From: a virus
Length of the DNA stretch: 20,180 nucleotides
Virus record (IMG/VR): IMGVR_UViG_3300032331_004101
Coordinates: 1-20,180 of that record
Reading direction: 5' to 3' (one strand)
Shown: positions 1 through 17,296 of the stretch, one piece after another
Layout: every line of letters starts with the position of its first letter
Numbering within the stretch: position 1 is the stretch's first letter
Made by a program: the position numbers and the translations under genes
Notes under the pieces: model-generated
What the model was told of the DNA's origin: nothing
The model's input: only the letters and a program-made list of their open reading frames with translations
The model's database searches: none

Positions 1-3000
1 CATCTTCTTGACTCAATGTATAGTCTAAACCGTTGAACAGACATTGTCCATTATAAGATACAATCATTCGTTGATCAACTTGAAACACTCTATTCAAATT
101 AAAATCATTGTAAGCCAGTATCACACCTTCGCTGTAATCATAACTTCCAGGTTCTCCGGTAGTTGATCCAAAATCAAATGGGTAAGCATCAAATTTTTCA
201 TAAGCCACTCCACCAGTAGTGATCGGGCCAACCCATACCAATTGAATAATACCTTGCTGACTGGTGTCATTCCAGGTAGTGACAGAAATTATATCACCAG
301 GCTGTAATCCAAAACTACCTGATGGTCTAAAGGTTATTTCATCGTCGGCTATGACATAATCAGCTTTGGTATTGACACAAATTAGAACACGAGCACCAAT
401 GGTTGGTACGTAGGTTAAAAGCACAGATCTTCTACTGAACCCGTCCCATGGTACCACAGTGAAATCACTGCCCAATACTTGTGCAACGTCGTCAACATAT
501 ACATGAACTTCGTTGTCTGCAATCAATCCCTGACTATACCCACCACGATCAGGTAACAAAAACTCTGCACTAGAGCCGTCGCCATACCATTCAATGCCCT
601 CTGATGGTCGTAATTCAATCCCGTTAACTGTTACGTAAGCATTGTCTATGTTAGACCCAGGTAAAGGATTGGTCAACGGATAAGTCAAAACTGCTGCAAA
701 TGCCACCACTGGTGGCACAACAATGATTTGCGTTTCAGGCAAACTCCAACTGTGCTGCGGAGTTTCATACCCCAGAGCAGTCAATGTTATTGCATCTGCG
801 CCAGTTAAGATTATATTAAATTCTATCAATGTTGCAACTGATAACAACGATGAATACGTGTAATCGGTGCCAGCAACTAATAAAACTCCATTGACAAAAA
901 TAACCAATTCATAAATTTCTGCATAGGTCACCGGAATCTCAAGCCTTAGGCCAACATCAGCACCATTGTAATTGGCCTGCAGCAATTGATTTCCGCCACC
1001 AACTTGGTACACTGTAACAATAAGAATATCGCTGGCTGCTGCAGCAAATGGTGAAACTGTGACAGTTTGATTTACATAATCAACTGAATATTCTTCGCCA
1101 CCGCCAATATTGTTCAACACCAATCCAGTGGTAGCATTGCTCACACGCAACGCACTTGGATAGATGGTATTGAGATTAGCTGTTAGTCCAATCTGGCTCC
1201 AGTCTATCGTGGGGTTGTCAGGATCATATTCAGCACGTTGTTGCAAAATAGCAAAGCCGTGCCCAGTTCCACTCCAATCTGAGCCCGGACGAGTGTACAC
1301 TCTAAAATCCAACGTATCAAATTCTTGTCCAGGAACTAATTCTTGTGGAGCGTAGCTTGAGTAAGTGTCAACAAATGCTCCGCCATCAACATTGATGTCA
1401 CCGCTGCGAGATCCAAGATATACATCTAAAAACTGACTTTCATACTGTGCGTCAAGTATGGTATCGCTGTAGGTCGGACGACCTTCTGGGCCAAAGTCTA
1501 TGTTGTCCCAGGGAGTTACATCAAATGGTCCATGATCAAACCCAGTGTCATATTCAAACGGCAGTCCGGCAACTTGCACACCAGGATAATCAACGCCATC
1601 AATCAACAATGGTAACACACGTCCGGGTTGATTAATTGATGCTACATAATAGCCCATGGTACGATCAACACCACTGAGGTCGCCAATTGGTACCAGTATC
1701 CAATCTGCAGGATCAAAAGTAGGTGTATTAACACCGGTACTGTCAGGGCTATCAGCGGCCCAAATCTTATCAGCATAACGAACTAACTGTCCGTTATCAA
1801 ATGTAATGTTGGGTTCCCACTGTAAAATGTTGCTGGAATATTCGCAGCGGTCAAACTTAATTGTTGTTTTAATACTTCTGATTAGTCCATTGGTCATGTA
1901 CGCCACTGCACGAGCGCCAGTGCCATTACCACCAACTATTGTGACCACAGCCGATGTAAGATACCCAACGCCTGGAGTTACTAAAGTCACAGAAGTCACA
2001 GCACCAGCACTGTCAATGTTGGCAATGGCCACTGCTGCAGTAGTTGCGTCACCGGTGATGTTGACTGTGGGAGGCGAGGTATACCCTGCGCCGCCATCAA
2101 TTATAACAATTTGTTCAACATATAATTTGTAATTGTTAAACCATTGATCCCAAGGATTGGTTTGCCAAATGGCAGCATTGCTTGGGAAATAACTTGGACC
2201 GGTTTCAGAGTTTGATAAAATTGGACTTGTATACTGCGCAGGTGATACTGCAGTATTATAAAACGCCGGTACGTCAAAATCCGCGATATCGCCGGTATAA
2301 AGGTCAAAACCATTGTAACGTAAATTAAACTCTCTAATTTGTACATGATATGGTTTGACTTCGTTTAGATAATCAAGTACAAAGTCTTGATTATCACGAC
2401 GATACGTTGGGTATGGAAGTAGTTCACGGATGGTATGATCAACGTCAATCAAACTGGTTTTCATTAACCAGTCTGGTGCTAGTTGTTCAGTTAAAATAAA
2501 ATTAAACATCAATGTCATGAGCGTGTTGCGCTCAATCAACAATTCATCAATGAATAGTTCTTCATTGATACTTTGAATAATTTTACGAGTTTCAGTCTGC
2601 GGTGTTTCGTCAAAATACTGTGCGTCAAATACTTCACCATCAAATCCTAGTTTACCCTCGGCGTAGTTCCAAATACCTGTGGAAATTTGAATAGTGCCAT
2701 CTTGTAATCCCACACGCTGCCAGCCAGCATCATCAAGTTGATAAATTTCAAATTTTCCTTGGCTGTTGGCCGTGACCAAAACTACTGTGCCCAGAGGAAC
2801 GGTGAGAGTAATCAACTCAGCGTAACTTGCAACTTCAATACTGGGCGCAATGGTTTGATTAAATCCTGGTGAGTACCAATTGACATAGCTCCAATAAGCT
2901 TTGGTGTCATAGCTTTGTACCCGTGTCAGCAACAGATATCTAAGTCCAAGACTATTGACTTCTACGGTGTAAATTGTCCAGCGTCCGTTGTTGTCACTGT

Positions 3001-6000
3001 CGCTCAACACCAAATATTTGTAACCCAATGGTACAATTAAAATATTTTGCCAGCTGAGTTCTTCTAGATTGGCAACAGCTTCATTCCAGTTGCCAGCTGC
3101 CGAAGGAATTGGCTCTTCGCTTTCTAATAATGTTAATGTGCGGCTTTCTGCAATAGGATACAACAACAAAACATTGTTGGTGTGAGTTATGTAATTTTGC
3201 AGAGCAAGATAACGATCTACAAACATTGACTGTCGAGGTCTAAACTGAACTCCGTATCGTTCAGCAGGACTCAGACTCACATCAGGCACTGCGTTTCCTT
3301 GTGTATCAACGCCACAGAAACTGTCTTGTAATTTACGATACAGAGCTGGTGTTAAGAAACTGTTGGCCCGACCCTGTGCCAACAGTTGGAATTCAGTGTG
3401 TACGTTGGCGTCGTTAATTTCCCGGTCAAATTCAATATGAATAATTGTATCAGCTGCACTGAAATAACTTTGAGAATTATAGATTGCTATGCAACTTGGT
3501 GTCAGTGGAGCAATGTACGGTATTCCGCTGGCAATTGGTGCCTCAATATAACGAGCCAATGCGCTGACACTTAAAGTCTTTTTAGCGGCTGTACTGACAG
3601 TGGTAATTCCTTTGACCCAATAATAGTAAGAAGTTACAAATGCACCCGAGCTATTAAGAGTCGCACCCACTGAATAACTCAAGATTGAGTATGGTGTTCC
3701 TTGTCCGGTGTAGACTGCCGGGGGGACATCGCTCTCAATCCATTGATAGATGTCAACACTGCTGCCGGGGAATACTTGCCCCCAACGCCGACTTGCGTAC
3801 ACTATGTCATCTTGGCCAGGATCAACAAAGCGCACTGAACTGGTATCCCACCATATCAGTCCAATCTTTGATGCTCCCCAAGGATTGCCTTGATTATTAA
3901 AGCTACCGTTATTGTAACCAGCTGGATCAAAAGTGCTAATATAATTAAGATTTTGTTTGACTGCACCAAGGATCTTTCCTTGTAACGGGTCAAAGAAATC
4001 AAGAAACTGTGTTCGAGCACTTTGTAATCGATCATACAAAGTTACAGAATTAATAGCATAAATGTTGACTGCTGGTGCCTGATAGTGCTTAATTGACCAA
4101 GCAGGTACCTGATCGTTGTTTCTGAATACAGTTGCGGCTCCGTTATTCAACACACCATCAAACTCAACACCTGGTGATCCGACCATCAATGCTGTGGAAG
4201 TGTAGTTTACTGATTCACCAAAACGATCATTGGTTTGAGAGTTGCTGTAATAAATTTGCTGCCCATAAACATAGGCACCAGGATTAATCGCAGATTCATT
4301 TGCCGAGGGCAAATAATCAAATTGATATACTACCCCGGCCATGGAAATGTCTTGATAAAACTGTGTGCTGTTGGCATCAAAATACGTGTCACCACCATCA
4401 AATGTTTCAATGATATGTGGAGTACCACCCGGTGATCCAATAATAAGTTCTAGGCCTTGCGTAAACAATGCTGCTCCAAACCGAGCTTGGTCAGTGACAT
4501 ATGGACTTACCAACGTCTGTGAATACACAACGTCCTTGAAACCCAGTGTTGTATAAACGCTGGTTGCATCAGTGCCCACCGCACCCGGTAACACCAATAA
4601 TTTTTGATAGGGCGTTGCAGCAGTTTTATTGATCAGGTCAATAGTGATCAATCCCGACGATGCCGATACTGCAGCAATAACATTGGGGATTCCAGCGGCA
4701 TTGATGGCACTTGTCAGCCCGGCCACGTTGTTGTTTGGACTTGCGGGCACCGCAACTTCAAAATTATTAATACGGAGAGTATTGCCAGCAGTTAAACTAG
4801 GCGATGCCACTGTGCTAGTAATCGTTCCGTAGAGTCGTGATTGGTTGAGATTGACATCAACCGTTCCTTGCTGTTGATTATTGACTGCAGCCGTTGGAGA
4901 TGATGCCACAACACTGCTATCAAACAATCCAAATGTCACTTGTTGGCCAAAGTATGCATTTTCACCGGTGGTGTTGGCCACAAGTTTTTGCACTTGAGTA
5001 AACAAGTTTGTTTCAACATCAACGATTGTACCCAAATTAAGCTGTTGATTTACAGTTACACTAGAGGCAGTTGTAAAGATATCACCAGCATAATTAACCG
5101 TAAATGTATTGGGAATATCACCCCATTGAGCAGTATTATTAAAATACTCTCCGTTGACTGCAACAGAAGTTGGATACGTCAACGTTCCATTTACAACCAA
5201 TGTAGTTGTATCGTCGACTGCATCAACTATAAATCTTTGTATATTTCTATCAAACACATAGACAGCGCCGGATCTTGATACGCCATTGTAATTTTCCTGT
5301 GGTGCGCCCACCAATACCTGTGATCCATCAGCAGAGCATGCCACAGAATACCCAAATCGTGCATCCAGTGCCAGCCCTGGCACTGTTATTTTGGCAGCAT
5401 ACGCATAGTATGTTGTGGCCACAACAAAGATTTCCGAGCCAGCAGCTGGAGAAGTGACAAACACAAGATCATAGTCATTCAATGTGCTGTCTGGCAAGCT
5501 ACTGTCAGACCTTTCCCATTCGTAGTCAAGTTTTGGACGTTGCATAACACCATTAACCGACACTGTGAACGAGCTGATATTTTCTGCAGTATAGAGGTAT
5601 TGACTTATTGAAAAACGATCAACAGTCGAAGGCCTTGATCCTGTGACGCTGATGCTAATAATATTACCGGCAAACGTAGTCTCTTCAACTGTGATGTAAC
5701 AGTTGTTGGCTGGGGTTGATCCACCAAGATTAGTGCCATAGATAGTTAAAATTTCACCAACACTGTAGTTGGTGCCGGCATCGGCCAATGTAGCAGAATA
5801 CAGACCACGGGTAATGTCCACATTGAATTTGGCATCAAATCCTGAACCATTGGTGGAGTCTTGACTTATATTTAGGTATTGATAGAAATCTAATTGTACC
5901 CGCTGGCGACGATTAATGTAGACAGTTTGCCCGGGGCCAGTCACTGTGTTAAAGGTAATGTAAGTTAGGCTAGCAGTGTAATCAACATTCAGTGTCTGCG

Positions 6001-9000
6001 GACGATTTTCAATGTATACGTCAAGTTGATCAACTGAGTTATACTGAATTCCTGCAGTACTGAACCTAACTGTCACTCCATCAGTTGTATGAGTGACCAC
6101 TTGTGTTGGTACTGGTACTTGCCCATAAGCATAGACAGCATTTGTCCCCGGGGCACCAACATAAATCCAACGTTCGTTGCTGCTGATTGCCACACTGAAT
6201 CCAAATTCTCCTGGTCCAGGTTGATCCAACGCCAGTATTAATTGTGCATTTCCAAAAGCCTGTGTCTGTCCATCATATGCAAGTACTGTGGCATATCCTA
6301 TATAATTTGCACTATTGGGTGCGCCAGCGGCTCCCCAACTGTTGTTGCCTATGGCCACCGACCGTCCATAAGCCAACACACTTGTGGCGTTGAGACTCAG
6401 TGTTGAGCCTTCGGCAAATAAACCCAGAGAGTTCACTGAGTACTGATAGACTATACCGGTGCTCAAATATGGTGCTGACAGCAGTGACACAATATTATTT
6501 TGTGTTTGTGCTATGCCCAGTGTCCATTGTGCCCCACTGCCTCTACTTGGATCAATATACTGAGCATAGGTCCAAGGCTCGTCTTTTTCCAATACTATCC
6601 AATTGTCAGCACCGCCGTTGTCAACCCAAACCAAACTGCCTGCAAGTAAGTCATTTACATATGGCAAATTTTTTATGTCGCTTGGCTGTGCTACTCTAAT
6701 GCTCTGTAAAATTAAGCCAATACCTCGCCCAGTAACTGACAATTGGTTGGTGCCAACAAACTGATACACAATGGTTATTGTATTCAATGAAGGCACTGTC
6801 AACACTTTATAAACACCATCAATTGCAGTGTTAAAGAATTTAATAATAATAGTGTCACCAACTGCCAGTTGATGTTGAGAGCTGAAATATACTATTGAAG
6901 TACCATCAAGATTATCTGCAACTTCGGCAACAAATCCTGGAATATGGTCGCAGCGATAAACTCCCCAGTTGTGGTCGTTAATTTTTGCAAACCAAATAGA
7001 TGTGCCAACACCAATGATGTCAAGATTGGCATTGATGTTTGCAGTGTCATTGATATCAAACACAGTGATGTCAATGTCATTTAAGTTCACATAGCCGGCA
7101 CTGGGTAAATTAACATCTGAAACTGGTACAGTGACCACAGGCAGAATATTTGGTGAAGTTATTTTATAACTTTCTCTCCAGAGATTGTCAATTTGCACAG
7201 TCTGATCTGCCTGTGAAAATTCAAAAGGCTCAATAACTTGTACTGTACTTGGGTTTGACGTCAATAAGGCTTGATTTAGTCGCATGTCAAAGAAGCTGCG
7301 ATTGGCCTGCGCTCCGTATACGCCTTTGAGAATTGCCCAGTTTTCGTAGACCACATAGTTCGCAGCGACGTTGGTAAAGTTTGCATTGCCAAACAAATCA
7401 ATACTGTACTTGGTACCTTTGGTGCCCAAGAACTGTTGATAAACATTGACCTGGCTGATGTCATCAAGATTGAGATTGGCCATATACTGGCGTGGCCTAA
7501 ATCCAATTAATCCAAAGCTCAGTAAATCTTGATCTCGCTCAAGATTGGTTGATGAAACATTGTACGATGTGCGCAGTTGATTTGCTTTGTTGGCCAGATT
7601 TGGCAGTAGCCCTTTTTGTATACGATTATAATCACTGATTAACCAATCATTGAAATCAAATTCAGCCTTGGGTTGTACAATGGTTGCCGCACTGTAATAA
7701 TTGTTTTTAAACAGTACAATTTGACCACGAGTGTACTTGACATTGGGCTGCCACTCCACAATGTTGTTTTGATTTAAAATAAACCCTTGAGCATCAAGTT
7801 GTCCATTCCATTCTTCAGTGGTGGCAGCAATAAACAGCAATCGACCCTGGCGGGCTGCAGTTATGGGATCATAAATTAAATCGCCAAATACGCTGACATT
7901 CTTTAAAATTAAAATTTGTTCGTAAGACGTAAACTGTAGATCAATAAAATTAATAGTTTGTTCAGTGAGACTGGTGACTTTAAACGTATTGTCAATACGA
8001 TCAACAACTAAATTTTGTGTTTCTATTCTTCGACGATTTTGATCCTGTATAATAGTTAGGGATCCGCGGTCAATGATACTATCTACCACTGCCTGTTGTC
8101 TAGTGACCATCAGTGTAGTTGATGTTGGATTAAGATTGACAATACTGCCTGGCCCCCAACCTTGCGCACTCCAGTACAGGAACTCTTGCGCCATTTGGTG
8201 CCAACTTAGTGTTATTCCATTCTCAACATCATCAAACACCATTCCTCGCTGTTTGAGTAATTGACCATAACTTAAAATAAAATCACACACTGCAGTTTCA
8301 TTGCCAAACACATACCCATAGGGAACACTTACAATGTTGTCTGAATAGGTAACAGGCACAGATACTGTTTTGCCACCAGCGGTGATGGTATCTGTTGGTC
8401 CGGTTGTTCGACTTATTAATATATTGAAGTACGGTTCCTGAATACCATATCCAAAAACGCTGTACCCGTCGGCAACTCGTTGGATGATGATCGAACTATA
8501 AACAATTTCACCAAACGGTTGATTTTTATACAACAGTAAATCGTATCCATCATCAGGCAACAATAGACTGGTGTTTACGCTATTGGGACTGGGTTTTTCA
8601 ATATACATCTTGATGTAATTTTTATCTGAAAAACTTGCCAGACGGTATGCTAGTTGTACTCCCAAGCTCTTGAGATTTGCGCTCAGACTTTCCGGGGTCG
8701 CTACGTTACCAAGATAGGTATTGTAATCAACAATCCAGTTGATGTAACTGGCCTTGCTGACACCAAGTCCATAAATTTCAACGTCGCTGGCGCCAATTCT
8801 GTAACGACCATTATAGAGATATTGATTGAGAACTTCGTTGTATTTGTAGAGATCGCGATCAATAAACAGCGAGAAGAATTCAGCAGGTTTGGTCAATGCA
8901 TACAAGCGCATTATTGCAAATGGATAGCTAGAACTGGTTCTCCAGGTATTTTCAACAGGGCCGTCGTCGCCAACTTTCCAGCTTCTTTGGAAGGTAGTTC

Positions 9001-12000
9001 TTGAATACAGCGACACCACGGACTCTAACGGTGGTAATAAATTGCCTTGTGCATCAACTGGCAACACTTCAAGAAGGTTGGGTCTAGCATACTGTGGTAA
9101 AGTATACGCACCAGCAGGGTCAGCCACTCGTCCTAGACTTAAATCGTCCCATAGCACCAAGTTACCTGATGTATACGGGCCTTCCCCATAGGTGTTGGTC
9201 CACCAGGTGGGTTGATCTGTGAATCCCAACATTTCCCAAGGAGCTGTGTTGGGTCTATAGGTGTCGTAAAAATATTCGTAGATTCCGCGCCAGGCTCCCA
9301 GCAATGGTAACCCTGACAATTTGTTGGAACTTTGACTGTAATTGTAGGTGAATGGGTTGGTTGGCAAGAACTGCTGTGCAGCATAGTCAATCTTATTGGT
9401 GCCAACCCAAGTCAAGAAATCAACACTTAAAATACTGTTGACTTCTTGCAGTGTGTATTCTGTGGTACGGAATTGCCCAGGAATTACATCAGTGATTTGA
9501 ATTGGTATTTTACTGTGTATCTTTAAATTGTTATAGATTCTTGTTTCAAACTCTAGTAGAATCTCATCACGAATATCCTGGAATGCCACTGTGACACTTC
9601 CATCATGCCCTCTGATTACCAATGCCGGGGTAACATAAGTTTCATCTAAGAAAATTGTTGGTCTAAATGCAGGATATAGACCCATTTTTGTAGGAGTGTT
9701 GGGGACGAAGTTTCCAATCGTTGTGGGGAACTCCTGGATAGTAACAACATCGCCTACATTCAACGACAAAGTCAGTGTGATAATGGGTGCATCAACAGAC
9801 ACAACATATTCAAAGTCTTTGGTCAACAATCTGTTGTTGACGTAGACCAATAATCCATAATAGTTACTTGTTGTAAAATCGTAGACTCTATTTGTATTGA
9901 ATGAGTTGGTACTGATAGGTGTTATGGTATAGACATTTTCTGTGTACACTGTTCGTGCTGGCAGCATGTCTGACCAATAGAATGGATTTGATTCAGTTCT
10001 TCCGGCTGTCAAGGCACTGATTGCTTCTGTGAAAATTTGTGGCGTAGTCATATCGCCCCAATCTTTTGAAGCAACAATATCTAATAACTGTGTTTTAAAC
10101 TTAATGTATTCTCTGGCGTTATAGTCAAGCGAAGCAAAGAATTCATAGTCTTGATTACGTAAGAAATAGCCCAACAATGTCATTGGTGAGCTTTGCTGCA
10201 GGATATTCAATCCATAAGGTGCAATATATCCCAGATCCCGACTGTTGTTGGCACCGTTAATAATTCCAGTAAAGTCTAATAAATTCTGACAGATTGTTTC
10301 GTAGTGAGTACGAACCGTGCCTAGTGTTACTGTCTGAGGATTTTGATTCAGCGCATTGTTTTCAAGATTTGAAGGTATTTGATAAAAAGCTACAGGACTT
10401 ACCTGTGAGCTCAACGCCAGTACAATCACTGTGTCGCCTGTGACATAACTAGTGTCAAGATTTATAGTTGTAGTTGTTGCGGTTGTGGTATAAGAGTATG
10501 TGCCTGGATCTTTAAACTTAGAACCAACATATACTTTTAATACCGGATATGTTGATGGCATATACGGGTCAATAATTTGATCATCAACTTTGACATCTAA
10601 CAATAATGGTGCACCAGTGTACGTAAACTGGAACTGCTGGTAAGTTTCACTTGGGTATGGCGCAGTTGCCCAACCAATCTGACGATTGAACACCAGACGA
10701 TCCAGGTACCGATGCACAAATCCTATGCTTATATTTTCTGTGGTACTGATTCTATTGTTGACATAGGTAAATGTATCTGTGTAAAAATTATTATCAAATA
10801 CAATATCACCAATGTTGTTAATTGTCAAATACTTGATGGCAAATCCAAGAGTGGGATCAGTTACTCCAGCACTGTCAACTGCATATGAAAACAGTTTGGT
10901 GCCCGCAAATGTACTACTGGGATATTTCACAGGATCTGACAACGCAATACCATCGGCATCAAATACATCAAATAACGGAGGCTGGTTGATAGAAATTTTT
11001 TCCTGGGCTTGCTGCCAGGTCACGCCGTCAAACCAAAAACTTTGTCCTTGTCGTGTGGCACCGTTGAGACAGACTGTTGTGCTTAGATAACTGGCCTCAC
11101 CGTCGGCCACAGGAGTTAAATTAATAATTGGCTCGGCAATCAATGGCGACACAGTGTCTGGTGTGATTAACTCAACCTGATAGATTTTATTGCGTACATT
11201 GGGATCTGTATCAGCGGCAAACACAACCAACGATCCAGTGACTAGAGTGTACCCATCAATGACATAATTGTTGAGTACTCCGTTGACATCACTAAATGCA
11301 TCTTTGATAGTAAAATCAATGACATCAATTGGCATTTTTCCCTTGGTGCCAAAATCAAATAATTTTATTCCTGCATTAAATTCTAAGATTGGACGTCGCG
11401 CTCGCGCTGCCAAATCAAGCAATGGAGTTGAATTGTTGTAGTAGGCTGACTCTTCCAGAACTTGTCTATGGAACCAACGATTACTGCGACTCCAGGCGTT
11501 GCGACTTACACTGGCACGATTGATGGTAATGTAATCAGGTTCTGCTGGGATATTGCTGCTGATATCATAGTTTCCAATATCAAACGCAGTGACATCAAAC
11601 CCTACATAAAGACTTTTTGTATAGGTTTCCGGCGTGACCATATCAACCACAGGCACTAATACAATGGCGTCGCCTACACCTTCAACATAGTATTCGTTAT
11701 TTGCGTAGCTCTCAGGAACAACGTTGCCTCTAAATTGAACTATCAATCCATTGGTAAATGTCACGCCATTGGGACTGTTGTATTGCTTCTTGCCAATGAT
11801 ATCTTCAATGTACAATGTAGTGTCAACGTTGGCATCAATAAGACGTATTTCCCCAACTAATGTAGGGTCTAACTCATCTTGATAATACAAGACGTCAAGT
11901 ACGGCCGACAGCAGTGGAATTCTTTCAAAATAATGATTGTCGCTGCGATACCACTGAGTACTTGAGTATTGTGTTCCAAATGTTATGACAAATTTTTCAA

Positions 12001-13465
12001 AATCATGCACAAGTTGGTTAGGTACCAACGTCATGTAAACTCTTCCATCACCATCGGTGTTGAATTGAATTTGCCAGATATTGTAACGATCATCAAGGCT
12101 GACAATTTCTAATTCCTGGTCATAAAGTTCCTGATTGTATCCGCCATTGGGATCTGCAATCTGAGTGGGACTATACAATGTGGTATAAGTCCATCCACCG
12201 GCTTCGGCGGTGTTGACATCAAACCCTTGCCCTTCCAGAGATGGAATATTGAATACCAATGTACGATTTTCTAGGTCAGTGACACCATCAATACCCTGAG
12301 GGTACGTTGCAAGAAACGCATCTACGTAGACATTGTTGATTTGATTAAACTTAATGTCGCTCAGTATGTCAACTGAGCCGATGTCTGTGAGATTATAATA
12401 GAAGTTCTGCGCAGTTTTCTTGGGAACATTAAAGGTTATGGTTCCTAGGTCAGCACCGTTGTTTGACACTCCCAGTATTTCACGACTTGAGATGTTTGGA
12501 GTCGCTGGCATTGTACCGTCAATGCCCGGCTGTGCTTGAATAAAGAATCCTGGTCCTGTTCCACCGTCGCCATCAACAATAGTAAATTTTCCCTGCATCT
12601 GTGAGGATGTTTCGCTGGCATAATACAGTGTGTCAGGTGCGTCTTGTGGTACAGTAAATGTCAGAGTTCCTTCACGGGCTCCGTTATTAATTACACCAGT
12701 GCTGTAAACGTTGGTGGTGCCGGTGGATGGTAAAGTTTTGATCCATAAAGGAAAATCTCCTTCAATACTCAAGGTAAAGATATAGGTATTACCTCTTATA
12801 AGAGTAATTTCAGGATTGGGTTGATAATTTATAATGTAGGCTTTGTTGCCTTGGTTTGTGACTCGATAATTAACTGTTGTTTTTCTGTTTTGGGCAACTT
12901 CAAACTGATAAGACCCACCACGTACCAAAGTGATAACTGGATTTTGTCCCAGCACTCCACTGAAACTGTAGTATCCTGGGTTACGTGTTACATTAAGGGT
13001 ATTTTGTGCCGCGATGATTCCGCCAGTGACCCCAACACTCAATGGACCAGTAGGCAACCAATAATACTCGGAGAAATTTATCATCATGTCATAATTGACA
13101 AATGGATCCCAGGCATAATATTGATTAGAATACAGTCGGTTACTGCGTGTGGTATTGGCTCCTTGTAAATCCAATGCATTGGAGATACCCGGATAGGTAA
13201 TGGCGTCAACTACTGTGTCTGTGTCTGGTAACTTGATTACAACTGCAGGTTCAAGTTGATAGTCGGCTCGTTCTTTGCTGGGTTCAATGACATAATTTGA
13301 TCCAGTGGGATCAATACCTGGGCCAATTTTTCTACCAACGTACCCTTGTGTTTTTTTGTATTTGGGCTCTTGTACCAGCTGATCAAGCGTACTTGATAAA
13401 AACTGCCGATTGGTTGTAGTCTGAAAAATTTCAGGTAAAAAGTCTACGGTTTTTACTCGTGCCAT
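1..13465 (-). CDS. Giant baseplate/tail structural protein in the gp7 position, at least 4488 aa, 3' end beyond the window
   Basis: The frame opens with ATG at 13465-13463 (MARVKTVDFLPEIFQ) and stays open to base 2, so its C terminus lies outside the window. The start shares one base with the gp6 stop (TAATG) and has GGAG seven bases upstream. Blocks that I recognise from memory in very large structural proteins of aquatic T4-like phages are WDPFVNYD (119 on), NRWFHR (about 662), RRPILEF (about 690), NQPPLFDVFD (about 827), DIRDEILLEFE (about 1296), WKVGDDGPVENTW (1496-1508), IGLIWWD (about 3201) and LNEVKPYHVQIREF (about 3700). Between them lie cupredoxin-like, chitin-binding-like, FG-GAP and VNG-type modules, listed separately. 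T4 gp7 has 1032 residues and I see no clear sequence match to it, so the gp7 role is inferred from position next to gp6. Cys is very rare. I see no signal peptide, transmembrane segment or enzyme motif. It could instead be a wedge protein fused to a tail fibre. Confidence 0.85.
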   Translation of the reverse strand, partial: MARVKTVDFLPEIFQTTTNRQFLSSTLDQLVQEPKYKKTQGYVGRKIGPGIDPTGSNYVIEPSKERADYQLEPAVVIKLPDTDTVVDAITYPGISNALDLQGANTTRSNRLYSNQYYAWDPFVNYDMMINFSEYYWLPTGPLSVGVTGGIIAAQNTLNVTRNPGYYSFSGVLGQNPVITLVRGGSYQFEVAQNRKTTVNYRVTNQGNKAYIINYQPNPEITLIRGNTYIFTLSIEGDFPLWIKTLPSTGTTNVYSTGVINNGAREGTLTFTVPQDAPDTLYYASETSSQMQGKFTIVDGDGGTGPGFFIQAQPGIDGTMPATPNISSREILGVSNNGADLGTITFNVPKKTAQNFYYNLTDIGSVDILSDIKFNQINNVYVDAFLATYPQGIDGVTDLENRTLVFNIPSLEGQGFDVNTAEAGGWTYTTLYSPTQIADPNGGYNQELYDQELEIVSLDDRYNIWQIQFNTDGDGRVYMTLVPNQLVHDFEKFVITFGTQYSSTQWYRSDNHYFERIPLLSAVLDVLYYQDELDPTLVGEIRLIDANVDTTLYIEDIIGKKQYNSPNGVTFTNGLIVQFRGNVVPESYANNEYYVEGVGDAIVLVPVVDMVTPETYTKSLYVGFDVTAFDIGNYDISSNIPAEPDYITINRASVSRNAWSRSNRWFHRQVLEESAYYNNSTPLLDLAARARRPILEFNAGIKLFDFGTKGKMPIDVIDFTIKDAFSDVNGVLNNYVIDGYTLVTGSLVVFAADTDPNVRNKIYQVELITPDTVSPLIAEPIINLTPVADGEASYLSTTVCLNGATRQGQSFWFDGVTWQQAQEKISINQPPLFDVFDADGIALSDPVKYPSSTFAGTKLFSYAVDSAGVTDPTLGFAIKYLTINNIGDIVFDNNFYTDTFTYVNNRISTTENISIGFVHRYLDRLVFNRQIGWATAPYPSETYQQFQFTYTGAPLLLDVKVDDQIIDPYMPSTYPVLKVYVGSKFKDPGTYSYTTTATTTTINLDTSYVTGDTVIVLALSSQVSPVAFYQIPSNLENNALNQNPQTVTLGTVRTHYETICQNLLDFTGIINGANNSRDLGYIAPYGLNILQQSSPMTLLGYFLRNQDYEFFASLDYNAREYIKFKTQLLDIVASKDWGDMTTPQIFTEAISALTAGRTESNPFYWSDMLPARTVYTENVYTITPISTNSFNTNRVYDFTTSNYYGLLVYVNNRLLTKDFEYVVSVDAPIITLTLSLNVGDVVTIQEFPTTIGNFVPNTPTKMGLYPAFRPTIFLDETYVTPALVIRGHDGSVTVAFQDIRDEILLEFETRIYNNLKIHSKIPIQITDVIPGQFRTTEYTLQEVNSILSVDFLTWVGTNKIDYAAQQFLPTNPFTYNYSQSSNKLSGLPLLGAWRGIYEYFYDTYRPNTAPWEMLGFTDQPTWWTNTYGEGPYTSGNLVLWDDLSLGRVADPAGAYTLPQYARPNLLEVLPVDAQGNLLPPLESVVSLYSRTTFQRSWKVGDDGPVENTWRTSSSYPFAIMRLYALTKPAEFFSLFIDRDLYKYNEVLNQYLYNGRYRIGASDVEIYGLGVSKASYINWIVDYNTYLGNVATPESLSANLKSLGVQLAYRLASFSDKNYIKMYIEKPSPNSVNTSLLLPDDGYDLLLYKNQPFGEIVYSSIIIQRVADGYSVFGYGIQEPYFNILISRTTGPTDTITAGGKTVSVPVTYSDNIVSVPYGYVFGNETAVCDFILSYGQLLKQRGMVFDDVENGITLSWHQMAQEFLYWSAQGWGPGSIVNLNPTSTTLMVTRQQAVVDSIIDRGSLTIIQDQNRRRIETQNLVVDRIDNTFKVTSLTEQTINFIDLQFTSYEQILILKNVSVFGDLIYDPITAARQGRLLFIAATTEEWNGQLDAQGFILNQNNIVEWQPNVKYTRGQIVLFKNNYYSAATIVQPKAEFDFNDWLISDYNRIQKGLLPNLANKANQLRTSYNVSSTNLERDQDLLSFGLIGFRPRQYMANLNLDDISQVNVYQQFLGTKGTKYSIDLFGNANFTNVAANYVVYENWAILKGVYGAQANRSFFDMRLNQALLTSNPSTVQVIEPFEFSQADQTVQIDNLWRESYKITSPNILPVVTVPVSDVNLPSAGYVNLNDIDITVFDINDTANINANLDIIGVGTSIWFAKINDHNWGVYRCDHIPGFVAEVADNLDGTSIVYFSSQHQLAVGDTIIIKFFNTAIDGVYKVLTVPSLNTITIVYQFVGTNQLSVTGRGIGLILQSIRVAQPSDIKNLPYVNDLLAGSLVWVDNGGADNWIVLEKDEPWTYAQYIDPSRGSGAQWTLGIAQTQNNIVSLLSAPYLSTGIVYQYSVNSLGLFAEGSTLSLNATSVLAYGRSVAIGNNSWGAAGAPNSANYIGYATVLAYDGQTQAFGNAQLILALDQPGPGEFGFSVAISSNERWIYVGAPGTNAVYAYGQVPVPTQVVTHTTDGVTVRFSTAGIQYNSVDQLDVYIENRPQTLNVDYTASLTYITFNTVTGPGQTVYINRRQRVQLDFYQYLNISQDSTNGSGFDAKFNVDITRGLYSATLADAGTNYSVGEILTIYGTNLGGSTPANNCYITVEETTFAGNIISISVTGSRPSTVDRFSISQYLYTAENISSFTVSVNGVMQRPKLDYEWERSDSSLPDSTLNDYDLVFVTSPAAGSEIFVVATTYYAYAAKITVPGLALDARFGYSVACSADGSQVLVGAPQENYNGVSRSGAVYVFDRNIQRFIVDAVDDTTTLVVNGTLTYPTSVAVNGEYFNNTAQWGDIPNTFTVNYAGDIFTTASSVTVNQQLNLGTIVDVETNLFTQVQKLVANTTGENAYFGQQVTFGLFDSSVVASSPTAAVNNQQQGTVDVNLNQSRLYGTITSTVASPSLTAGNTLRINNFEVAVPASPNNNVAGLTSAINAAGIPNVIAAVSASSGLITIDLINKTAATPYQKLLVLPGAVGTDATSVYTTLGFKDVVYSQTLVSPYVTDQARFGAALFTQGLELIIGSPGGTPHIIETFDGGDTYFDANSTQFYQDISMAGVVYQFDYLPSANESAINPGAYVYGQQIYYSNSQTNDRFGESVNYTSTALMVGSPGVEFDGVLNNGAATVFRNNDQVPAWSIKHYQAPAVNIYAINSVTLYDRLQSARTQFLDFFDPLQGKILGAVKQNLNYISTFDPAGYNNGSFNNQGNPWGASKIGLIWWDTSSVRFVDPGQDDIVYASRRWGQVFPGSSVDIYQWIESDVPPAVYTGQGTPYSILSYSVGATLNSSGAFVTSYYYWVKGITTVSTAAKKTLSVSALARYIEAPIASGIPYIAPLTPSCIAIYNSQSYFSAADTIIHIEFDREINDANVHTEFQLLAQGRANSFLTPALYRKLQDSFCGVDTQGNAVPDVSLSPAERYGVQFRPRQSMFVDRYLALQNYITHTNNVLLLYPIAESRTLTLLESEEPIPSAAGNWNEAVANLEELSWQNILIVPLGYKYLVLSDSDNNGRWTIYTVEVNSLGLRYLLLTRVQSYDTKAYWSYVNWYSPGFNQTIAPSIEVASYAELITLTVPLGTVVLVTANSQGKFEIYQLDDAGWQRVGLQDGTIQISTGIWNYAEGKLGFDGEVFDAQYFDETPQTETRKIIQSINEELFIDELLIERNTLMTLMFNFILTEQLAPDWLMKTSLIDVDHTIRELLPYPTYRRDNQDFVLDYLNEVKPYHVQIREFNLRYNGFDLYTGDIADFDVPAFYNTAVSPAQYTSPILSNSETGPSYFPSNAAIWQTNPWDQWFNNYKLYVEQIVIIDGGAGYTSPPTVNITGDATTAAVAIANIDSAGAVTSVTLVTPGVGYLTSAVVTIVGGNGTGARAVAYMTNGLIRSIKTTIKFDRCEYSSNILQWEPNITFDNGQLVRYADKIWAADSPDSTGVNTPTFDPADWILVPIGDLSGVDRTMGYYVASINQPGRVLPLLIDGVDYPGVQVAGLPFEYDTGFDHGPFDVTPWDNIDFGPEGRPTYSDTILDAQYESQFLDVYLGSRSGDINVDGGAFVDTYSSYAPQELVPGQEFDTLDFRVYTRPGSDWSGTGHGFAILQQRAEYDPDNPTIDWSQIGLTANLNTIYPSALRVSNATTGLVLNNIGGGEEYSVDYVNQTVTVSPFAAAASDILIVTVYQVGGGNQLLQANYNGADVGLRLEIPVTYAEIYELVIFVNGVLLVAGTDYTYSSLLSVATLIEFNIILTGADAITLTALGYETPQHSWSLPETQIIVVPPVVAFAAVLTYPLTNPLPGSNIDNAYVTVNGIELRPSEGIEWYGDGSSAEFLLPDRGGYSQGLIADNEVHVYVDDVAQVLGSDFTVVPWDGFSRRSVLLTYVPTIGARVLICVNTKADYVIADDEITFRPSGSFGLQPGDIISVTTWNDTSQQGIIQLVWVGPITTGGVAYEKFDAYPFDFGSTTGEPGSYDYSEGVILAYNDFNLNRVFQVDQRMIVSYNGQCLFNGLDYTLSQED
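2..961 (-). repeat. Tandem 'V-x-VNG ... DYT' beta modules at the visible C-terminal end of the giant protein
   Basis: From about residue 4169 to the edge the protein is a run of beta modules with a V-x-V-N-G hairpin followed 6 to 12 residues later by D-Y/F-T. Copies include LVIFVNGVLLVAGTDYTY (4187-4204), AYVTVNGIELRPS (4276-4288), VHVYVDDVAQVLGSDFTV (4320 on) and IVSYNGQCLFNGLDYTL (4468 on). Related copies lie further upstream at about 1205 (LLVYVNNRLL), 2483 (LDVYIENR) and 2633 (FTVSVNGVMQ). Such modules are common in phage tail and fibre proteins and may be Ig-like sandwiches. More copies probably continue outside the window. Confidence 0.6.
1700..1819 (-). other. Chitin-binding-like (CBM5/12 type) Trp module 2 in the giant protein
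   Basis: Residues 3883-3922 read WEPNITFDNGQLVRY, then KIWAAD, then FDPADWILV. It matches module 1 in the order Trp-x-Pro-Asn, aromatic, Gly-Gln-hydrophobic-Val and a closing (D/N)W. It directly follows the Gly-rich repeats. Two copies in one virion protein favour a real module over a chance motif, but the substrate is unknown. Confidence 0.5.
1889..2086 (-). repeat. Gly-rich 'GYTSPPTV' tandem beta repeats in the giant protein
   Basis: Residues about 3794-3859 hold two tandem copies of one short unit: GYTSPPTVNITGD followed by GVGYLTSAVVTIVGGNGTGA. Each has Gly-Tyr, a Ser/Pro turn, a V-x-I strand and a Gly/Ala-rich end. Units of this kind are common in phage tail fibres and bacterial surface proteins. 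A related piece (AGTNYSVGEILTIYG, about 2560) sits inside the propeller insert. I infer a structural spacer; no catalytic feature is seen. Confidence 0.6.
4110..6517 (-). repeat. FG-GAP-type beta-propeller repeats split by inserted modules in the giant protein
   Basis: About residues 2317-3115 contain at least six repeats of the pattern FG-x-S/Q-V-(strand)-hydrophobic-G-A/S-P-(loop)-G-A-x-Y/V-hydrophobic-(D/R). Clear copies are YGRSVAIG...GAAGAP (about 2366), FGFSVAISSNERWIYVGAP (about 2419), FGYSVACSADGSQVLVGAP (about 2704), YFGQQVTFG...VVASSP (about 2838), FGAALFTQGLELIIGSP (about 2996) and FGESVNYTSTALMVGSP (about 3082). A weaker copy (IVSLLSAP...GIVYQYS) precedes them. This is the signature of FG-GAP/integrin-alpha-like propellers. 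The gaps between Phe positions vary from about 55 to 283 residues because other beta modules are inserted between blades. Propellers of this kind usually mediate protein or glycan binding; a role in host-surface contact or as a wedge scaffold is inferred. Confidence 0.75.
7643..7753 (-). other. Chitin-binding-like (CBM5/12 type) Trp module 1 in the giant protein
   Basis: Residues 1905-1941 read WQPNVKYTRGQIVLF, then NNYYSA, then FDFNDW. The spacing Trp, Tyr, Gly, Val, Tyr and a final Trp is that of the small carbohydrate-binding module family 5/12, which uses exposed aromatic residues to bind chitin or related glycans. In phage tail proteins such modules may bind surface sugars or simply act as spacers. 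The same pattern recurs about 1980 residues later in this protein. Confidence 0.5.
12356..12973 (-). other. Cupredoxin-like beta-sandwich modules in the giant protein
   Basis: Residues 165-370 of the giant protein hold related beta modules. The most complete is about 217-298: it opens with NPEITLIRGNTYIF, continues through FPLWIKT and GTTNVYSTGV, and closes with LTFTVPQDAPDTLYY and SQMQGKF. This order matches the cupredoxin-like module seen in many aquatic phage and bacterial surface proteins, where the usual ending is a Tyr-Tyr-x-Cys stretch followed by a Met. Here the Cys position is Ala (YYAS), so a type 1 copper site is unlikely although the Met remains. A front half-copy precedes it (NPVITLVRGGSYQF, about 180-193) and a back half-copy follows (GTITFNVPKKTAQNFYY, about 341-357). 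The likely role is structural or surface binding. The fold call rests on motif pattern only. Confidence 0.6.
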
Positions 13466-13476
13466 TAAATCACTCC
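13463..13476 (-). promoter_or_regulatory. TAATG stop-start overlap with ribosome binding site for the giant gene
   Basis: The gp6 stop TAA (13467-13465) and the giant gene's ATG (13465-13463) share one A. GGAG lies at 13476-13473, seven bases before the ATG and inside the last gp6 codons. Together they suggest translational coupling, so that the giant protein is made in step with gp6. This site decides the start and is the strongest Shine-Dalgarno sequence I found at any start in the window. Confidence 0.7.
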
Positions 13477-16400
13477 GCTGCCAGGTGCTGTTCTAATATT
13501 AGTGCTTGTCAATGCTTCAATTACTTCGACGTCTGCCACTGTGGCGGCATTGACAAAAATCTCATTGGGTGCTGATCTGATTTCGTACAAGTCACCAAAG
13601 CTCTTCTGTGTGTTTACAGGAACCAATACCACGGAACTTACAATAGTTCCAATTTGGGAATGTATGTACGCAGCAAGTTCCGAAAAATAGAAAGTGTCAC
13701 CAAAATTCCACTTATCAATAGTGAAGTAGGTGTTGAGGTTTGCCACCACAAGATTTTTAATTTCACTGACACTGGCTGTGCTGTTAGAGGCTCTAATGAC
13801 CTTGATAGTGGCTCGCAGTTCAGGCGCGGCTTTGGCACCAAACAAAGGTTTGAAAACCACTGAATTCAATACCAGATTATCAGAAATCATTTTGTAATCT
13901 TGTAACTTCTGGAATTCAGTTGTTAATTCATCAATAGTAGGCACCAAAGGTTCTACCACAGTGCCTGTGGAATCTTTGATCCAGTTTTGATATGCTGTGT
14001 AATATATTTGTGTGACCACATAGACATCAATGATGTTGGTCACTGATGGGTCAATGCGGTTTGTCAGCAGGCTGTTGTGACGGTATTGATAATACAGATC
14101 TTGACGACCAGTGCGGGCTAAAAATTCTGTGGTTACTGTCAAAGTTCGTGTACCGTCAGTGCCCACGCTCAACACATAGAATACCTGATCCTGATATGCA
14201 TAAAATACCTGTCCATCTAGATACTGACTTTTAATTGTTTCAAGTTCTGACAGAGTAGAATATTGATAATTTACACGACCTTGTTCAACAAGAAGGTAGC
14301 GTTGTAAATTATCAAAGTCAACTGTGGATTCTAAAAATACCAATGGACCACTTTGTCCGGTGGCAGGATCTGGGCCAACGATAGTCGCAAAGAAATCTGG
14401 ATCGTCTGCTGCACCATCTTGGTCTGAGTCTTGAAAACTTACATTGACTTGGAAATCATCAACATAGCCATCGCTTTGTACTGGCTGTGCAATAATTTGC
14501 ATCGTGACATCCCCAGTGAGCGGTGAGTTACTGTCAGGTTGGCTATTGGTTTTTAATACCCGAATAAAATCTTTGATCACTGACCCAATACGTGAATCAT
14601 AAACAGCCACATTTTCTTCAAAGAAGAATCGTGTTTGTAAAACTGATGCAAAATAATATGTAAGTTCACGTGCGGTCACTGCATACTGTGTGCCATCAGT
14701 GATAAATTTCAGCAACCAACTTGAATCGCTGTAGGTACCTGCAGTACTCTGTTGATTGACAAGACTAAATGCCCCATCAGCATTAAGATTGGTCTGAGTA
14801 ATAATGTACCAAGTTGATGTAAGATTATTGTACCCAAGACCAAAATTACGATATAGTCTAATTAATTCAATTACTTGCTGCACTAAACTTGAAGGCAATT
14901 CTGTTAGGAACAACGGAATTACCTGAGTTGGAACTGCACCAGTGGGAATATAGTTGTTCAAAGCCACTGGGCCAGTGCCGTCAGTGAGATTGCCCTTGCC
15001 TTGATTGGTACCATCAAGTACCACATCTGTCACGGTGGCCCAGATGTAAGATTTGTCAGTATCAGAGGTTGAAATCCCTGATACCAAGTGGTTATACTGA
15101 TTAAAGTAGTACCCATCAGGTGGTACAAATTTAACTAGAGCATTTTTTACAACATATTGCATGTTGTTGCTGGCAAATGATCCAATTGGTACTGGTAATC
15201 CAGTACTGGGATTCTCAAAGTAGCCTGTACAAAGATTGGTCAACGCTGTGCTTTGATTCCAGCTATAATTTAAAACTGCAAGATTGGGACGAACGAAATT
15301 AGCGTAGTAAAACTGCAGCAGGCCGGCCTGTGTCAACAGCGGTTGTACTTTGTTGGCAACATTGTCTGAAATATCATTGGTTGTGAACCAGGAAAACTGA
15401 AACGTTGGCAGCGTATTGTCTTTGTATAGACCACCGTCGCTGCCAAACACATTGGTTGATGCATACTTGTTGGTGTTGTCAACCAGCTCAAGGTATCGCG
15501 ATGTACCCACGGCGCTGCGTGCCAGTGCTTTTGATTTGATAATTTGGTTGTACAATGTAAATGGGAAAATATTATAATCTTCTCCATTGACCATACGATT
15601 CTGTGTGTAGTATCTAGCTGGAGCACGTTGCTTGATTTCATCAATGGCTTCGCGCTGCTGTGAGTTACTCACCGGCGTTTGTAGACTCACTGTGAATGTC
15701 AATGTTTCAATACGACCAGTGCGACTGACATAGCTAACCGGCAATACAATACTTTGCATCTCATCAGGGTTAATGATGTACTCAAGTCCGTTTGAGCTAC
15801 GCACATAGGTTCTAAAAGACCCTACAGGAATTGCTGAAAAAACACCATCACCAAACACCAATGAAATTTGATCGTTGCTGCGACTTGTTATTGAATATAT
15901 TTTTCTAAGGCCTGATGCTGAAGTATCAGGCGCTGCGGTGTAGACGCTTTCAACATATAACCATTCGGTATTCAGACTTCCAATATCATCAAGTTGGTAT
16001 AACCAATGATCTTCGTTATTGATACCATCAATGTTGATGGCTACTTGACGATTACTGACTCGTTCAGGTAAATTAAAGTCTGCTGACTGCAGGTTCCCCT
16101 GCTTAAAGTAAAAGAAGAATCCAGTGTTGTTGGATGCAAATCCCAACTGATCATTGCGATATAAAATGTTAAACGCACCATTGGGCTTTGGGGCTGGTTC
16201 ATACAAATATGACTTACCCGAAGATGTAACATTGATTGCTTCAAATGGCATGTTGACACCATCCACAGTGGCAGTATAAGGAATAACAGGCAAGTATCCT
16301 TGCACTAAATTCAGCGTGTATTCATCAGTTTTAACGCCCAGCAAATCTGCAGTATTACCTGGATTACCATATCTCTGTGTGTTGACAAAAGCAGCATTGA

Positions 16401-16878
16401 TAATTGATACAAATTGTTCAAACCAGTCAGGGTTTGTGGGGTCGTTCCAGTTTACTGTGATATTGGCGAGATTTACGCCGTTGTAATCTGTAACACCTTC
16501 GGTGGTTGATACAGCAGTGACTTTGATCAATCCCTGTGCGGGTTCGTTGCGTTTGGCAGTGTAGCTGACCAACGAAGCCAGTTGATTAACTGAATCCCTG
16601 CGTTCAGCGGTGTCCATGTAGTTTTCGCGGGCATTTAAATCTGAGCGGAAAGCCAACGATTGCCCCATAAATGCCATGACATCCAGCAACGCAATGAACT
16701 CTGAACTTTCAATGTAATCATTAAAAGTCTCGGGGTAATACAAGCGCAAGTAGTCTACAAAACTCTTGCGCAGAGTCTCAAAATCGTAGCTTTGAAAGTC
16801 AGCTTCACGATAAGTCTGATAGATCTGTTTCCAGTCTTCGACTCCAAAAATAACGGTTTGTCTGGTAGTTTTAGCCAT
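13465..16878 (-). CDS. 6: Baseplate wedge protein gp6, enlarged (1137 aa)
   Basis: gp6 forms the ring of the T4-type baseplate wedge and holds the iris-like connections between wedges. The N-terminal third carries the family signature: YLRLYYPETFNDY (43-55), FIALLDVMAFMGQSLAFRSD (61-80), ARENYMDTAERRDSV (83-97) and YTAKRNEPAQG (106-116). A baseplate-J-like block follows at about 407-435 (EIKQRAPARYY then NRMVNGEDYN). The C-terminal domain ends with DKWNFGDTFYFSEL and FGDLYEIRSAPNEIF (1094-1108). T4 gp6 has 660 residues, so this protein carries several hundred extra ones, mainly in the middle, including an Asp-rich DSDQDGAADD loop at 817-826. The ATG at 16878 leaves 43 bases after gp25 and has no clear Shine-Dalgarno sequence. 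The next gene overlaps its stop. The family call is firm; the placement of the insertions is an estimate. Confidence 0.93.
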   Translation of the reverse strand: MAKTTRQTVIFGVEDWKQIYQTYREADFQSYDFETLRKSFVDYLRLYYPETFNDYIESSEFIALLDVMAFMGQSLAFRSDLNARENYMDTAERRDSVNQLASLVSYTAKRNEPAQGLIKVTAVSTTEGVTDYNGVNLANITVNWNDPTNPDWFEQFVSIINAAFVNTQRYGNPGNTADLLGVKTDEYTLNLVQGYLPVIPYTATVDGVNMPFEAINVTSSGKSYLYEPAPKPNGAFNILYRNDQLGFASNNTGFFFYFKQGNLQSADFNLPERVSNRQVAINIDGINNEDHWLYQLDDIGSLNTEWLYVESVYTAAPDTSASGLRKIYSITSRSNDQISLVFGDGVFSAIPVGSFRTYVRSSNGLEYIINPDEMQSIVLPVSYVSRTGRIETLTFTVSLQTPVSNSQQREAIDEIKQRAPARYYTQNRMVNGEDYNIFPFTLYNQIIKSKALARSAVGTSRYLELVDNTNKYASTNVFGSDGGLYKDNTLPTFQFSWFTTNDISDNVANKVQPLLTQAGLLQFYYANFVRPNLAVLNYSWNQSTALTNLCTGYFENPSTGLPVPIGSFASNNMQYVVKNALVKFVPPDGYYFNQYNHLVSGISTSDTDKSYIWATVTDVVLDGTNQGKGNLTDGTGPVALNNYIPTGAVPTQVIPLFLTELPSSLVQQVIELIRLYRNFGLGYNNLTSTWYIITQTNLNADGAFSLVNQQSTAGTYSDSSWLLKFITDGTQYAVTARELTYYFASVLQTRFFFEENVAVYDSRIGSVIKDFIRVLKTNSQPDSNSPLTGDVTMQIIAQPVQSDGYVDDFQVNVSFQDSDQDGAADDPDFFATIVGPDPATGQSGPLVFLESTVDFDNLQRYLLVEQGRVNYQYSTLSELETIKSQYLDGQVFYAYQDQVFYVLSVGTDGTRTLTVTTEFLARTGRQDLYYQYRHNSLLTNRIDPSVTNIIDVYVVTQIYYTAYQNWIKDSTGTVVEPLVPTIDELTTEFQKLQDYKMISDNLVLNSVVFKPLFGAKAAPELRATIKVIRASNSTASVSEIKNLVVANLNTYFTIDKWNFGDTFYFSELAAYIHSQIGTIVSSVVLVPVNTQKSFGDLYEIRSAPNEIFVNAATVADVEVIEALTSTNIRTAPGSGVI

Positions 16879-16921: not shown

Positions 16922-17296
16922 TTATATGTAACTGGCTCGGCGTGTTTCTTGATCAAAGAAAATGGATAGACGTTCGGCGGTGGTGCTGGGTACTATTTGT
17001 ATTTGCAGTTCAATTAAAATTCCGTTCTGCTGAGGGTATTGATACATGTTGTAAATTTTTAATCTGGGATCACCACCAGCAACTCTTTGCACTTCATTTT
17101 TGATGGCAGTTTCTACTTCTAGGGTCTGTGGTTCAAACAAGAAATCCCATAGTGCTGTGCCATAATCAGGACGTCCCACCAACTCTCCTTGGCGAATATT
17201 AAAGGCGTTGAGCAGATCACGCTTGACTAACTGGTAATCAACAAGAGTGAATTTTTTGTACTGATTGATGGTGCTGTAGCCAATGAATGTTGTCAT
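16922..17296 (-). CDS. 25: gp25-like baseplate wedge / sheath initiator
   Basis: This 124-residue protein is close to the 132 of T4 gp25. gp25 sits at the top of the baseplate wedge and starts sheath polymerisation; the family also includes the TssE-type proteins of type VI secretion. The hallmark block is at 37-56: GELVGRPDYGT then LWDFLFEP, followed by DPRL at 76-79 and a final beta region (GILIELQIQIV, 92-102). The ATG at 17296 lies five bases after the upstream gene's stop, in an AT-rich stretch with no clear Shine-Dalgarno sequence. Lying directly before gp6 fits the T4-like wedge module. The older lysozyme label for this family is not supported by anything I can see. Confidence 0.93.
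   Translation of the reverse strand: MTTFIGYSTINQYKKFTLVDYQLVKRDLLNAFNIRQGELVGRPDYGTALWDFLFEPQTLEVETAIKNEVQRVAGGDPRLKIYNMYQYPQQNGILIELQIQIVPSTTAERLSIFFDQETRRASYI

Follow-up and report, generated by a model that had tools for sequence, protein, structure and literature searches.

A predicted seven-bladed FG-GAP propeller inserted in the giant gp6-adjacent virion protein of a group of jumbo phages

The locus and the giant virion protein

We analyzed the whole of a 20,180-base virus record (IMG/VR record IMGVR_UViG_3300032331_004101), referred to here as the window. All of its long genes lie on the minus strand and encode a gp5-like hub protein, a 511-aa ORF, gp25, a gp6-like wedge protein and a giant ORF (Table 1). 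The giant ORF, which is open at the window edge, is complete in two close relatives at 4744 and 4741 aa. It lies directly after gp6 in the baseplate cluster, which is the gene position of gp7 in T4. The 511-aa ORF (17302-18837), between the gp5-like hub and gp25, has a weak hub/lysozyme match (phrog_27932, E 1.5e-4).

In its core, the giant protein has homologues among the virion proteins of RaK2, PA5oct, Atu_ph07, SCTP-2 and CBB-type jumbo phages; the family N-core profile gave E-values of 1e-233 for PA5oct and 7e-125 for RaK2. We found the conserved core encoded in 559 stretches of viral contigs. Scans seeded with SCTP-2 alone or Atu_ph07 alone yielded no new relatives. Members of phrog_10938 have a homologous N-terminal core and C-terminal part and a gene directly after gp6, all of which are found for the giant protein; the giant proteins of the RaK2/PA5oct/Atu_ph07/CBB type likewise share the core, the C-terminal part and the gene order. 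The PA5oct homologue has been detected in virions by mass spectrometry, as has the CBB homologue, CBB_236, with 21 peptides (PMC5259590). The giant protein is a virion protein of RaK2/PA5oct-type jumbo myoviruses and probably resides in the baseplate. An earlier note on this DNA, made from its letters alone, had assigned it to the T4-type wedge proteins. The placement directly after gp6 in a baseplate cluster is in keeping with the baseplate part of that assignment. Kinship with T4 gp7 did not emerge: hhalign against the single T4 sequence gave E-values of only 0.096 and 0.066, nothing significant was found for gp7 or gp8 with single T4 sequences as targets, and the search for a PDB match bearing on gp7 homology returned none. 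The AlphaFold2 model of core residues 1090-2280 was poor (pLDDT 60.5, pTM 0.37), and we set aside its Foldseek hits, which were to endosialidase and ubiquitin E1.

Several other stretches of the giant protein and its relatives can be recorded here. Residues ~140-300 (window 12569-13048) look by eye like cupredoxin-like repeats, and residues 191-298 match phrog_677, annotated as "baseplate wedge tail fiber protein connector" (E 6e-16). Residues 1904-1925 (window 7691-7756) carry a weak CBM_5_12-like motif (E 0.12), and a PA5oct-like homologue is annotated as a "chitin-binding type-3 domain-containing protein". Residues 3778-3857 (window 1895-2134) form a "GxGYT..P.V" beta module common to phage head-closure and hub proteins (phrog_460, phrog_1922). 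Contigs with relatives of the giant protein (L179-L184) have been placed in MAGs of Pelagibacter, Porticoccaceae, Betaproteobacteria, Neomarinimicrobiota and Rickettsiales; these are probably phage contigs, and the bins are possible host hints.

FG-GAP repeats and the predicted propeller

The giant protein belongs to the FG-GAP_2 repeat family (PF14312), matching it with an E-value of 3.2e-13 and 50.1 bits against a cut-off of 23. At the DNA level, PF14312 matched four separate segments of the giant gene (best E 1.6e-10), and only 1 of 14 control genomes matched. Each of the 37 relatives that we searched gave a PF14312 match at E <= 0.1, in 26 cases above the cut-off. FG-GAP_3 (PF13517) gave no match. 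FG-type motifs start at residues ~2316, 2366, 2421, 2704, 2839, 2996 and 3082, making seven repeats, and seven are also present in the consensus of the family alignment (A2, 58 loci). A blade profile, which was trained on the family itself so that its E-values, unlike those of Pfam, are not independent, likewise hits the window seven times, with start-to-start spacings of 52, 56, 283, 134, 156 and 86 residues. It gives exactly seven hits in 95 of the 127 slots with any hit. The earlier note had read an FG-GAP propeller at 4110-6517 with at least six repeats, spaced about 55 to 283 residues apart, and blades split by inserted beta modules. The strand and coordinates were right to within the slightly larger domain listed in Table 1, and the spacing and interruptions agree with what we found; the repeats, however, number seven rather than six.

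Table 1. Coordinates of the propeller, its parts and the surrounding genes (window positions)
Feature	Residues	Position	Strand	Basis
Giant virion-protein gene	4488 aa present, open at window edge	2..13465	-	phrog_10938 "virion structural protein", E 3e-287
Right flank of insertion site, "VNIYAINSVTLYD...FDPLQGKILG"	3129-3175	3941..4081	-	empty-site alignment
Whole FG-GAP propeller	2296-3126	4088..6580	-	AF2 model residues 16-846 aligned to integrin alpha headpieces; PF14312
Blade 7 strands A-C	3082-3115	4121..4222	-	FG-GAP_2 hit 4124-4246, E 4.3e-6; AF2 model
Blade 6, 33-residue B-C loop	2996-3071	4253..4480	-	blade profile, AF2 model, DSSP
Blade 5 strand D	2979-2986	4508..4531	-	AF2 model, DSSP
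Insertion 3, C-D loop of blade 5	2875-2978 (104 residues)	4532..4843	-	AF2 model, DSSP, profile comparison
Blade 5 strands A-C	2839-2874	4844..4951	-	Pfam, blade profile, AF2 model
Blade 4 strand D	2822-2828	4982..5002	-	AF2 model, DSSP
Insertion 2, C-D loop of blade 4	2741-2821 (81 residues)	5003..5245	-	AF2 model, DSSP, profile comparison
Blade 4 strands A-C	2704-2740	5246..5356	-	best Pfam FG-GAP_2 hit (5252-5395, E 1.6e-10), AF2 model
Blade 3 strand D	2686-2693	5387..5410	-	AF2 model, DSSP
Insertion 1, C-D loop of blade 3	2451-2685 (235 residues)	5411..6115	-	AF2 model, DSSP strands, profile comparison
Blade 3 strands A-C	2421-2450	6116..6205	-	family consensus, blade profile, AF2 model
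Blade 2	2366-2410	6236..6370	-	family consensus, blade profile, AF2 model
Blade 1	2314-2356	6398..6526	-	family consensus, blade profile, AF2 model
N-terminal strand, probable closing strand D of blade 7	2299-2304	6554..6571	-	model residue 16 aligns with integrin alpha residue 1
Left flank of insertion site, "WVDN..W.V"	2277-2295	6581..6637	-	empty-site alignment with propeller-less relatives
gp6-like baseplate wedge protein (context)		13465..16878	-	phrog_10646, E 4e-279
gp25-like baseplate wedge protein (context)		16922..17296	-	PF04965 above cut-off
gp5-like baseplate hub protein (context)		18840..20180	-	phrog_13211, E 8e-26

AlphaFold2, given residues 2281-3145 and 58 aligned sequences, produced a model with a mean pLDDT of 88.8 and a pTM of 0.89. 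When this model was used in a Foldseek search, the integrin alpha headpiece ranked first and integrins dominated the list, with integrins alpha-5 and alpha-V at the top (E about 1e-8, TM up to 0.58 by target). VIA-align superimposed it on integrin alphaM with a Z-score of 28.8 at 2.5 Å over 352 residues and 21% identity. Model residues 16-846 align to seven-bladed propellers and 28 strands are assigned from DSSP; the domain is predicted to fold as a seven-bladed propeller, with closure of the ring judged from the alignments and the strand count. This is the structure that had been proposed from the letters, here with its blades counted. The FG-GAP-type propeller forms the head of animal integrins, and the FG-GAP sequence leads us to assign the predicted propeller to the integrin type, as does its identity to integrins (18-22% over about 350 residues), which is higher than that to seven-bladed WD40 proteins (10-16%, Z about 27); the order of the Z-scores of these two groups, which lie within about 1-2 Z of each other, was left out of this choice. 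It is very improbable that the repeats arose by chance in a long beta-rich protein that forms no propeller. The rest of the giant protein is indeed partly beta-rich and contains repeated beta modules, but the Pfam E-values, the quality of the structural match and the recurrence of exactly seven blade hits in most of the slots all argue against such a coincidence.

Like the window domain, the integrin alpha headpiece has seven FG-GAP blades, and the alignment begins at integrin residue 1. Loop insertions are also found in integrins that have an alpha-I domain, but the alpha-I domain sits elsewhere than the C-D loops of blades 3-5 that hold the insertions of the window propeller. Unlike integrin alpha, the window propeller is embedded in a phage virion protein and has no known beta-subunit. 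It also lacks the Ca2+ loops found in the A-B hairpins of the later blades of integrin alpha: the motif Dx[DN]x[DN]G is absent from residues 2290-3130 of the giant protein, and 104 of 124 related propeller slots have none. Judging by these missing loops, Ca2+ binding of the integrin kind is unlikely.

The placement of the insertions follows from the D-A loops, all six of which measure 12-14 residues in the DSSP strand assignment; this puts each large insertion in a C-D loop, those of the consecutive blades 3, 4 and 5. By the integrin convention, the face formed by the C-D loops is opposite the ligand face, and we assigned the top and bottom faces of the model from this convention and the strand order. 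Insertion 1 contains two copies of a beta module (96% profile probability to each other) and insertion 2 a related one (81%), while insertion 3 is a different module. Further copies are likely elsewhere in the giant protein, at residues 1178-1244, 4179-4220, 4319-4365 and 4454-4487. The slot itself varies among relatives, from a compact 439-aa propeller with no insertions (L138) through a 622-aa one with two (L126) to the three of the window, and slots with zero, two and three insertions are living intermediates. Since compact insert-free propellers exist, the insertions may have come later than the propeller. The largest members seen (L128 and L133) are ORFs of 5855-5858 aa with slots exceeding 1300 aa and long insertions after several blades.

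Insertion site, history and divergence

The propeller occupies a fixed site between the conserved core and the conserved C-terminal part. At this position, the giant proteins of RaK2, PA5oct, Atu_ph07 and SCTP-2 show no FG-GAP repeats and, unlike the window protein, lack the propeller. When the flanks are aligned, which works poorly for the left side of RaK2, nine relatives have an empty site at this position: a "WVD...W.V" stretch is separated by some 10-25 residues from a conserved right flank ending in "DP.K..LPG". The slot is ~117 residues long in RaK2 and in one further relative (L099), and larger with other content in other propeller-less relatives. In L105 and L106 it is occupied by arrays of beta modules of the "GxGYT..P.V" type. 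Just upstream of the empty site in the Salicola phage SCTP-2 (L096:13848-15260) is a stretch that reads by eye like a LamG/concanavalin-type lectin domain; Pfam gave no match to it.

In a tree of the core, the loci with the propeller form one clade with an SH-aLRT of 100 (63 rows), and the 14 rows outside it are all without a propeller; RaK2, PA5oct, SCTP-2 and Atu_ph07 belong to these 14, as do the nine relatives with the empty site. The only row of the clade scored as propeller-less (L112) does have FG-GAP_2, at E 6e-13. A single supported clade with the propeller and none outside it points to one acquisition, which is the simplest reading given a tree whose root and long branches are uncertain; the propeller may instead have been lost on the other side of the core tree.

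The propeller diverges faster than its flanks and yet is under purifying selection. Across the propeller region, identity to the window averages 0.42, as compared with 0.56-0.62 for the N-terminal parts and for the C-terminal part next to the propeller, and 0.53 for residues 3621-4488. Pairwise dN/dS is 0.055-0.15 for the propeller versus 0.03-0.065 for the core, and it is higher in the propeller in every pair for which both are defined. The earlier note had anticipated variation concentrated in the inserts. For length this is largely so, most of the differences falling in the insertions and a few top loops, but substitutions occur throughout the propeller (1.69 bits in the inserts, 1.89 in the D-A loops and 1.69 in the B-C loops).

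Possible roles and known phage propellers

Propellers take part in host recognition in several phages, among them the phi11 receptor-binding protein, PRD1 P2 and phiKZ gp131 (PMC4901313). The C-terminal domain of phiKZ gp131 (PDB 4GBF) is also seven-bladed, lies at the baseplate periphery of a jumbo myovirus and has been proposed to bind a receptor (PMC4901313). However, gp131 is a separate tail protein that is weakly RCC1-like by Pfam, whereas the window propeller is an insertion in the gp6 neighbor, and we found neither an FG-GAP match in gp131 nor profile similarity between the two. The phi11 receptor-binding protein is likewise a propeller platform on the baseplate, implicated in binding teichoic-acid GlcNAc (PMC4901313), but unlike the window propeller it has five blades and is a separate trimeric protein, of a Staphylococcus siphophage. 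Stand-alone propellers of about 400 residues in cyanophage S-TIM5 (H6WG31) and Atu_ph07 (A0A2L0UZX4) match the model by their predicted folds; these are separate small proteins, whereas ours is an inserted domain. BFVD also contains an unnamed protein of an uncultured phage that matches closely (A0A6J5L8L4), indicating that sequences of this kind are already in databases without comment. In tblastn searches of a cultured-phage collection with three versions of the propeller, no propeller carrier was found: two versions had no match, and the third matched only pieces of 53-56 residues inside insertion 1, in Synechococcus phages. In the open literature searched, we found no report of an FG-GAP propeller inserted in a giant gp6 neighbor. 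Propellers on phage baseplates as such are already known, including the seven-bladed one in the jumbo phage phiKZ.

By analogy with these proteins and from the predicted model, the likeliest role of the window propeller is that of a surface for gripping the host cell, to which we give a probability of about one half. The argument draws on the fold, the location in a virion protein beside baseplate genes, the absence from relatives, the faster change and the known phage propellers. In the mechanism we propose, a complete seven-bladed FG-GAP propeller of the integrin alpha type would have been inserted once in the giant protein of one clade. In the lineage of the window, beta modules in the C-D loops of blades 3, 4 and 5 would leave the B-C/D-A face free, and this face would be exposed and would bind a ligand on the host surface, with the modules on the C-D face docking the propeller on the baseplate. 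The propeller would then act as an accessory or secondary receptor-binding platform. Since relatives with an empty site live without it, it is not the family's general receptor-binding device. Counting against host binding, substitutions do not cluster on the putative binding face, and a peripheral domain that is simply under weaker constraint would also account for faster evolution at a dN/dS near 0.1.

A serious competitor, to which we give somewhat less weight, is that the propeller is a structural docking domain that fastens other baseplate or tail-fiber proteins to the wedge without ever contacting the host. Propellers commonly serve as protein-protein platforms, this one is part of a very large protein whose gene adjoins that of gp6, insertions 1 and 2 are akin to the scaffold's own beta module, and purifying selection dominates. 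However, RaK2, PA5oct and others have no propeller at the same site, so it is unneeded for building the baseplate as such, and it is among the fastest-diverging parts of the giant protein. An enzyme acting on a host-surface polysaccharide is improbable. Carbohydrate-active and lactonase enzymes do occur among seven-bladed propellers, and one compact relative also matches a Lactonase profile (PF10282, E 8e-6), but this match is just 82 residues long and may stem from the resemblance of propellers in general, and the families that match best, FG-GAP repeats and integrins, are not enzymes.

The propeller offers a candidate for host binding that can be tested, in a large group of jumbo phages most of which are uncultured. 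It is also an example, placed on a tree, of a phage tail protein that captured a domain at a single defined site, where the domain was possibly elaborated afterwards. We advance only tentatively, as a scenario that could well be wrong, that a propeller resembling that of integrin alpha entered a baseplate protein of the clade once, was extended stepwise on one face with copies of that protein's own beta modules and came to be used in host adhesion. If this is true, a bacterial virus and animal integrins would adhere through the same propeller platform.
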